Below, one piece after another: positions 6,023-7,744 of a stretch of DNA of 64,000 bases. How positions within the stretch are numbered: the stretch's first letter is position 1; each line of letters starts with the position of its first letter. A program made the position numbers and the translations under genes. The stretch is taken from NCBI GenBank assembly GCA_937124965.1, contig CAKZLB010000067.1, positions 62,001 through 126,000 of the forward strand, in the 5' to 3' direction. The DNA is from an uncultured Bacteroidota bacterium. Lineage in GTDB: Bacteria > Bacteroidota > Bacteroidia > NS11-12g > UBA9320. The notes under the pieces were generated by a model that was given only the letters and a program-made list of their open reading frames with translations, made no database searches and was not told the origin of the DNA.

Positions 6023-6046
6023 GGTTTCAAGGCATGCCTTGAAACC
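6023..6046. repeat. 24-bp perfect palindrome, GGCATGCC core
   Basis: The half-site GGTTTCAAGGCA is followed directly by its exact reverse complement, with no loop. It shares the core CAAGGCATGCCTTG with sites at 7099 and 7178, and the inner AAGGCATGCCTT with the site at 6581. It sits at the left edge of the foldback element (overlapping it by 5 bp), and resembles a REP (repetitive extragenic palindrome). Confidence 0.85.
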
Positions 6047-6480
6047 TGAGTTCGAGTCTTCTTTATAGGTTTAGAATTTCATAAAAGTCAATAGACAAGG
6101 CGGTTTTGTGAAGATTTAGCGGGTTGAACCCAAATTATGCATTAGTAAATCTATTACGAGAGAAAATCCCTGCAAAATCAAACGTTGCTCTGGCTTTTTC
6201 TCATTCACCATAGTGGTAACTATGCTAAAATCGACAAAAGCCTTGATTTTATTGGGCTTTTAACTCTCACTACGAAGAACTAATACACAATTCGGGTTTA
6301 ATCAATCAAATCCAACTAAGTCTATTGGGTTGATGGAACAACACATACTTATTTCATTAGGAAAAAGCGCTTCTCTTCCTAAAAATTATTTGAAATAGCC
6401 CGCTATTACTGCATAAATTTTAGTCGACAATCACTATTTCCTAGCGTTCTAAACCATAAATAATAATCGAACTCAGGTTT
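6042..6480. repeat. Foldback (MITE-like) element with inverted ends
   Basis: The ends are exact 14-bp inverted repeats: AAACCTGAGTTCGA at 6042-6055 and its reverse complement at 6467-6480, with further similarity inward (a TTTATAGGTTTAGAA-like block at both ends). The middle is a second, imperfect inverted repeat of about 80-bp arms (about 6122-6208 against 6225-6303; for example 19 of 24 positions match at the outer tip) closing on a perfect 6-bp hairpin CATAGT/ACTATG with loop GGTA at 6209-6224. There is no coding capacity. It could be a non-autonomous mobile element or a structured RNA; the former is favoured because its right end recurs next to a transposase-like gene at 63484. Confidence 0.6.
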
Positions 6481-6567
6481 GAAGTTTATTTGCAATTTGT
6501 GGAGATTCAAATTCTTCATTAAAGCCCCCAACGAGGTGAATTATTTGAAACCGCGTAAATGGTTGGA

Positions 6568-6605
6568 GCACTGAGGGTCAAAGGCATGCCTTTGACCCTC
6601 AGTGC
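6568..6605. repeat. 38-bp perfect palindrome, GGCATGCC core
   Basis: The 19-bp arm GCACTGAGGGTCAAAGGCA is followed directly by its exact reverse complement. It would form a loopless cruciform or a very stable RNA hairpin. It lies about 175 bp past the 3' end of the REP-associated transposase gene and shares the AAGGCATGCCTT core with three other sites within 1.2 kb. No run of T follows on either strand, so a simple terminator role is less likely than a REP. Confidence 0.88.
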
Positions 6606-6780: not shown

Positions 6781-7524
6781 TTAATGGGCCATATAATCCT
6801 TTAGCACAATATCACTAAAAAATTCATCATTCAACCAGGTTTTCGGATTGTTCTTTATGTAGGAGGAAATGCTGGAGAATGACCTAGGGTCTCGAATGAT
6901 AAGATCATAAAACCGGTTCTGCCAACCAAAATCCAGTTCCAACCGATTTGCATACTTTGTAACTGCCGATTTATAACCACCAACGATGGATGAAATCGAA
7001 TTTTTGCCTTGGTTCTGAAACCGCATTTGCCCGATTGTTTTTGACATTTCCGAACCTTTCGAAGAGGCTTGTAAGTCCCGCTCTGGTGGCTGAAAAAGCA
7101 AGGCATGCCTTGAACTCTCAATTTCTGATTCGTTTAATAGCTTTTCTGTTTGATCTTCGCCCGTCTTCCTGTCCAATATCAAGGCATGCCTTGATGCCTC
7201 ATCGGAACATGTTTCTTTAGCCCCTGCATCGTTTTGGGTTCCAACAGTCTCTCTATTGTTGATGGTTAATATTCCATGAACGTGATTTGGCATAACCACA
7301 AACTCGCCAATTTCAAAATTTTTAGAGTGGTTCTTTATTTCAAACCAAAACACATACGCAAGTATTCCAACCCGAGATAAGTGCATTTCCCCACCTATGA
7401 TCTCCCCAAAATATGGCAGCCTGTTTTTGGTGCAAATGGTAATGAGGTAAGAACCGTTCCAACGATAATCCCAGTGTTGCAATCGTTGGTACCCTTTGTA
7501 GTCGCGCATATAGCTTGTTGACAT
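6781..7524 (-). CDS. REP-associated tyrosine transposase (RAYT, Y1/IS200-like)
   Basis: The 247-aa protein belongs to the Y1_Tnp superfamily of single-strand HUH nucleases that act on hairpin DNA ends. Visible motifs are the N-terminal YLITICTKNR strand (26-35), the HUH motif in MPNHVHGI (His81 and His83), a KSAVTKYANR helix (185-194), the WQNRFYDLIIRD strand (201-212) and the candidate catalytic Tyr222 in SYIKNNP. All catalytic elements are therefore present. Between the HUH strand and the KSA helix there is an insertion of about 65 residues (about 91-160) containing two copies of the peptide SRHAL, each encoded by a GGCATGCC palindrome. Further palindromes lie downstream. Neighbours are unrelated, as is usual for RAYTs. 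It is probably a domesticated REP-processing enzyme rather than an active insertion sequence. Confidence 0.9.
   Translation of the reverse strand: MSTSYMRDYKGYQRLQHWDYRWNGSYLITICTKNRLPYFGEIIGGEMHLSRVGILAYVFWFEIKNHSKNFEIGEFVVMPNHVHGILTINNRETVGTQNDAGAKETCSDEASRHALILDRKTGEDQTEKLLNESEIESSRHALLFQPPERDLQASSKGSEMSKTIGQMRFQNQGKNSISSIVGGYKSAVTKYANRLELDFGWQNRFYDLIIRDPRSFSSISSYIKNNPKTWLNDEFFSDIVLKDYMAH
7099..7112. repeat. 14-bp palindrome inside the RAYT gene
   Basis: CAAGGCATGCCTTG, a perfect palindrome. On the minus strand it is read in frame as part of SSRHAL (residues 137-142 of the transposase). The core is the same as the intergenic palindromes at 6023 and 7178. Confidence 0.85.
7178..7195. repeat. 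18-bp palindrome inside the RAYT gene
   Basis: ATCAAGGCA followed by its exact reverse complement. On the minus strand it encodes the second SRHAL peptide (residues 111-115 of the transposase), in the same frame relative to the palindrome as the copy at 7099. Confidence 0.85.
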
Positions 7525-7744
7525 GGTTAAACTTGTTGATTCACGTTTTATAAATGGCCATGGTTATAAAATTGTGAGACAATGTTAGCGAGTAAAGAAT
7601 TTTGATTGCATATGGAGTCTCCGTACTGATATAGAAATCCATTGATCGACATTGTTAAAGGGGTAAGTCTATTGTCCGACTTGAAATGAATAGCACATAC
7701 AAGTGTATGCGCGTTTTATTCGTGCATGGATGTATTTTCGCAGG

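Follow-up and report, generated by a model that had tools for sequence, protein, structure and literature searches.

The locus analysed here, from an uncultured Bacteroidota bacterium, raises the question of why a transposase gene carries palindromes of its own family inside its reading frame. The window, that is, the whole stretch of DNA under study, spans 64,000 nucleotides and encodes a RAYT (REP-associated tyrosine transposase). The basic phenomenon is already published. In TnpA_REP subclass 2.4, which corresponds to RAYT group 4, Quentin et al. 2018 (PMC6006769) found REPs in frame in tnpA_REP, between the HUH motif and the catalytic Y, in a subclass characterized by double-foot REPs and a highly variable insertion domain. 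They judged the internal REPs to be tolerated, as these lie in a peripheral extension. REPs inside genes had also been known before (PMC3733652; PMC2817692). What is added here are counts against shuffled sequences and neighbouring genes, the symmetric turnover of palindromes whose site stays fixed, the match of internal palindromes to their own flanks, and the finding that an internal copy can be private to its locus or the only copy.

The RAYT gene of the window and its palindromes

The following features of the window are relevant to this question.

6781..7524, minus strand: RAYT gene, 247 aa, with motifs NHVH, WQ and YIKNNP
7051..7218, minus strand: predicted-disordered linker, residues 103-158, from HUH strand to KSA helix, housing both internal palindromes (from AlphaFold2 pLDDT and variability in the alignment)
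7178..7195, unstranded: internal palindrome 1, ATCAAGGCATGCCTTGAT, 18 bp, perfect, translated A-SRHAL-I, in the linker of ORF 6781-7524
7099..7112, unstranded: internal palindrome 2, CAAGGCATGCCTTG, 14 bp, perfect, translated SRHAL, with one-sided decay of the outer arm
6568..6605, unstranded: flanking palindrome 3' of the RAYT gene, 38 bp, perfect, sharing a 12-bp core with the internal copies
6023..6046, unstranded: flanking palindrome 3' of the RAYT gene, 24 bp, perfect, sharing the same 12-bp core
6451..6484, unstranded: relic of the 6023-6046 element in inverted orientation, comprising one half of it plus its flank, with 82% complementarity across 34 nt

The protein is an otherwise standard RAYT, as the sequence-only reading had stated. 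Its match to the Y1_Tnp family is weak but specific, and the NCBIfam model for REP-associated tyrosine transposases gives 1.6e-12, which is under the model's own cut-off. E. coli TnpA_REP (4er8) is the sole hit by sequence in the PDB and also the top structural match for the AlphaFold2 model. In this model, the catalytic core lies mostly above pLDDT 90, and the stretch separating the HUH strand from the KSA helix falls below 50 at residues 103-148 and 150-158. The earlier estimate of a 65-residue insertion was about right, with an HUH-to-Tyr distance of 143 residues in the window RAYT versus a median of 100 in relatives with an internal palindrome. The protein signature of subclass 2.4 / group 4 (NH[IFV]H, WQ, YIxNNP) is present as NHVH, WQ and YIKNNP, and the variable HUH-Tyr insertion holds two in-frame palindromes. 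Judged by this motif signature, the window protein matches RAYT subclass 2.4 / group 4, the tree built here comprising the collected relatives only. A separate observation concerns residue 208, a Leu at the position of H101 of E. coli TnpA_REP, which contacts the GTAG guide. The window RAYT is alone in this among the RAYTs compared, and its palindromes have TGAG in place of GTAG; with n = 1 (the window RAYT, with Leu and no GTAG), a link between the foot sequence and this residue could not be shown.

Both internal palindromes are read in frame as SRHAL, as first described, and they are spaced by 81 nt, or 27 codons. Their shared motif GGCATGCC occurs 4 times in the window versus 0.32 expected, a number reached in 0 of 100 shuffles. 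The two copies show no visible sign of a recent tandem duplication, as stretches of 110 and 70 bp, compared at offset 81, are just 0.41-0.47 identical. The flanking palindromes at 6568-6605 and 6023-6046, absent from the earlier reading, belong to the same family as the internal pair, and the description of the latter as REP-like is borne out. The RAYT gene is therefore adjoined by palindromes of one family, as in a REPtron. On the gene-sense strand, TGAG lies 15 to 12 nt ahead of the centre in both internal copies and in the 38-bp flanking copy, and in relatives GTAG or GTGG is placed one base nearer the centre. At the hairpin base, three of the four window elements have this TGAG and none has the GT[AG]G foot; in the internal copies, the matching 3' half of the TGAG foot has been lost.

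The 12-mer AAGGCATGCCTT has 5 copies in 4.09 Mb (reversed control pattern, 0), and four of them lie at the RAYT locus; the fifth, like 18 further genomic sites of GGCATGCC, is ordinary sequence with arms of merely 4-7 nt. The family is therefore private to the RAYT locus. The GTAGRGAC double-foot palindrome does not occur in the window genome, and a genome-wide REP pool was sought there and not found, so that the dispersed copies of a canonical REP are missing. The genome thus offers no pool of dispersed REPs from which the RAYT gene, itself present in a single copy, could have been invaded. This speaks against the part of the sequence-only reading in which REPs had inserted repeatedly from a genomic population. 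In relatives of the same genus and of the same family, the shared block begins near 7,730 and extends rightwards, leaving out the RAYT side. Since only one flank is held in common, no empty site can be read from this comparison and the element boundaries are not set.

Internal palindromes across related RAYT genes

RAYT loci were gathered from about 500 Bacteroidota genomes, giving 123 distinct ORFs. A gene was counted as positive if it held an inverted repeat with perfect arms of at least 9 bp, palindromes with a mismatch close to the centre not being counted. In the null model, synonymous codons were shuffled within each gene, keeping the protein and the codon set. An internal palindrome was found in 89 of the 123 genes versus a shuffle mean of 3.4 (maximum 7), a share of 72% that may be somewhat inflated because the collection profile was built from mostly palindrome-carrying sequences. 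With arms of at least 12 bp, the count was 58/123 versus a mean of 0.1 (maximum 1). Among neighbouring ORFs of at least 150 aa, a palindrome was present in 6 of 303 (0.055/kb). Chance palindromes are excluded by the shuffles, and their probability is practically nil. No supporting evidence for chance was found, and besides the survey figures, the counts in the window and its genome against shuffles and the reversed control stand against it. By these comparisons, carrying an internal palindrome is nearly the norm in this RAYT subclass and no accident of the window gene.

The placement of these elements is also specific, since 100 of 107 internal palindromes lie between HUH and Tyr. Palindrome density reaches 5.25/kb in the linker and 1.47/kb within 150 bp of the gene; over the 700-bp flanks, it is 0.40/kb upstream and 0.63/kb downstream. 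The most frequent palindrome is loopless and 28 bp long, GTAGAGAC-core-GTCTCTAC, with arm pairing of 74-78% as far as base 14 (the GTAG foot) and a drop to 37% at base 15. More than one insertion site exists, since in four genes, L023 (G087), L117, L149 and L163, the internal palindrome is N-terminal of the HUH motif rather than in the linker. L020 and L024 carry eroded versions of the L023 palindrome. In L160, at least 9 palindromes from two interleaved families form a dense array in the 700 bp after the RAYT gene, from about 65 bp past the stop, and the array continues beyond.

About a quarter of the related RAYT genes have no detectable internal palindrome. Since some of these genes belong to intact lineages that have flanking palindromes (L016/L017 and L028/L029/L035), the internal palindrome is not strictly needed.

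Copies elsewhere in the genomes of the relatives are few, with 0-32 double-foot copies per genome across 56 genomes. The RAYT gene itself holds the one full double-foot copy found in each of G098, G405, G237 and G125, where "only copy" refers to exact pattern matches in assemblies that are sometimes incomplete; in G171, all three copies are at the RAYT locus. Such cases again do not fit insertion from a genomic pool. Dispersed copies, mostly from genomes with several of them, lie outside ORFs in 35 of 40 cases. As merely 5 of the 40 fall within an ORF of at least 120 codons, and 2 of those 5 ORFs are RAYT-like, palindromes are generally uncommon within genes but frequent in those for RAYTs. 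One of the rare REPs read in frame in an unrelated gene was seen in L202 (G358:C9:91160-92760, centre near 800), where a GTAGAGACAAGGCATGCCTTGTCTCTAC palindrome is translated as VETRHALSLH in a 390-codon non-RAYT ORF. G083, the sole genome of the first set in which the GACANNGCATGCNNTGTC palindrome family is dispersed, has three such palindromes at 117-119 bp spacing (G083:C75:10253-10506) on a contig without a listed RAYT match.

Turnover of palindrome, peptide and frame

Together, the 89 palindrome-carrying genes have 52 distinct inner half-arms and 84 distinct peptides. Mapped onto a tree that leaves out the linker, the core shows 67 or more changes; this tree was made quickly from related sequences and has many weak forks. 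Near relatives show symmetric changes of both arms at the homologous site, as in L130 TCGCCGCGGCGA versus L181 TTGCCGCGGCAA and in L097 GCAATGCATTGC versus L099 GCGATGCATCGC. A whole swap is seen at the homologous linker site of L176, which holds the 36-bp perfect palindrome TCCTGTGGCATTATGCAATTGCATAATGCCACAGGA, versus the GTAGGGACGTTG type of L161. Where a gene also has flanking palindromes, its internal half-arms agree with theirs at 0.79, whereas shuffled partners score 0.44 and reach no more than 0.52 in 1000 shuffles. The internal palindrome therefore follows the palindrome family of its gene. Across the compared sequences, palindromy, location and usually frame are shown to persist while the sequence of the palindrome and the peptide turn over.

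These results bear on the possibility that selection acts on SRHAL as a protein motif, with the palindrome arising as a by-product of the codons. HAL-type peptides do recur in the nearest relatives, as this explanation would have it. However, the peptide follows the palindrome core through its many versions, and synonymous shuffles, which leave the protein intact, destroy the palindromes. A conserved SRHAL, which the sequence-only reading had named as the outcome that would speak against it, was looked for, and the opposite was found, the peptide changing with the palindrome. A selected SRHAL peptide, being extremely improbable, is excluded, as it is the palindrome that is conserved. The best reading of this pattern is that the internal palindrome would be kept as a DNA structure and not as a peptide.

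A role at the RNA level was also considered, in which the internal palindrome acts as a transcription attenuator or terminator limiting RAYT expression. In the window gene, the sense strand continues after the second internal palindrome (7112-7099 on the minus strand) with a terminator-like CTTTTT, and RNA hairpins fold stably in a relative. Across the family, at least 5 T in the next 8 nt follow 0 of 106 internal palindromes. This role looks unlikely, with a small residual probability, and is rejected on the family data.

The frame of the elements is biased. The 86 linker palindromes with arms of at least 10 bp are read as GTA-GAG in 73 cases, as AGA in 13 and as TAG in 0, a bias only partly explained by the avoidance of stops. 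On the tree there are about 10 origins of the minority phase, near the value from shuffled labels, so position and phase are reset at times by new insertion. Where a gene holds multiple internal copies, their spacing is a multiple of 3, with L166 as the one exception.

Retention or tolerance of the internal palindrome

The explanation that we favour, at slightly better than an even chance, is that the SRHAL segments are two internal copies of the RAYT's own REP-type palindrome, located in a disordered linker and retained as a cis-linked substrate. The palindrome is cognate in the sense that it is of the same family as the gene's own flanking palindromes, and it is a predicted substrate of the enzyme. 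RAYT action or hairpin-templated copying may create an internal copy where translation tolerates an insertion, and hairpin-templated correction is another possible supplier. Retention would then keep the recognition hairpin inseparable from the enzyme gene, so that the internal copy would serve as a resident substrate, carried along wherever the gene goes and able to remain as a genome's sole or final copy. Putatively, the RAYT may also bind the internal palindrome in ssDNA or mRNA, with autoregulation as a possible result.

The main alternative is neutral self-insertion, in essence the published reading (Quentin et al. 2018) and that of the earlier note. In this view, RAYTs would drop REPs within or close to their own gene, with survival limited to insertions that keep the frame and fall in the floppy linker. 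This explains frame and site, and the description of a tolerated site is borne out by the in-frame position of the copies in a permissive linker that is predicted to be disordered. In addition, REPs also cluster near the gene, phase and site have been reset several times on the tree, the unrelated ORF of L202 holds an in-frame copy, and the published structural model puts the insertion away from the active site (PMC6006769). On the other hand, palindromes are denser inside the gene than in its own flanks, where insertions should be better tolerated; they persist in genomes that have no other copies; and the window genome lacks a dispersed pool. Neutral self-insertion is held at clearly less than an even chance.

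Between retention by selection and mere tolerance, we lean to retention, which is somewhat ahead. Against retention, palindromy could persist through copying or hairpin-templated correction without selection. Moreover, compared with the perfect flanking palindromes, the internal copies of the window gene are shorter and have partly decayed, and none of the window elements shows the family's typical GTAG foot. The case for function is nevertheless stronger than the published one.

The window locus resembles TnpA_REP subclass 2.4 (PMC6006769) in its NH[IFV]H / WQ / YIxNNP motifs, its variable HUH-Y insertion, its REPs both flanking and inside the gene with the frame kept, and its occurrence in Bacteroidetes. 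It differs in the TGAG foot of its elements, in place of GT[AG]G, and in a palindrome family limited to one locus. GTAG-tagged REPs and REPtrons (Di Nocera et al. 2013, PMC3733652; Nunvar et al. 2010, PMC2817692) are likewise short palindromes adjoining a RAYT and probably processed by it. Unlike those REPs, which are dispersed in tens to thousands of copies, the window family has no dispersed copy, is loopless and has no GTAG. The HUH Y1 transposase fold and, as predicted for the window RAYT, hairpin substrates are shared with IS200/IS605 transposons, but there is no evidence of the window unit moving as a whole, and it has one genomic copy. To our knowledge, no cognate transposase of the Rickettsia palindromic elements (RPEs) has been described. 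RPEs are similar in being palindromic DNA translated in frame in proteins; they strike many unrelated genes (PMC3733652), whereas the window palindromes sit in the gene of their cognate enzyme.

Earlier work (PMC3116915) asked how RAYTs are maintained as single-copy genes while staying matched to their REPs. We tentatively suggest, at rather less than even confidence, that in group-4 RAYT genes the internal REP is under selection as a functional component, namely a cis-linked master copy that may also be autoregulatory, so that enzyme and substrate would co-evolve and transfer as one unit even without dispersed REPs. If group-4 RAYTs indeed keep their recognition hairpin palindromic within their own ORF even as its sequence changes, the matching of enzyme and substrate would be hard-wired in one gene, and this would explain the co-transfer and co-evolution of RAYTs and REPs.
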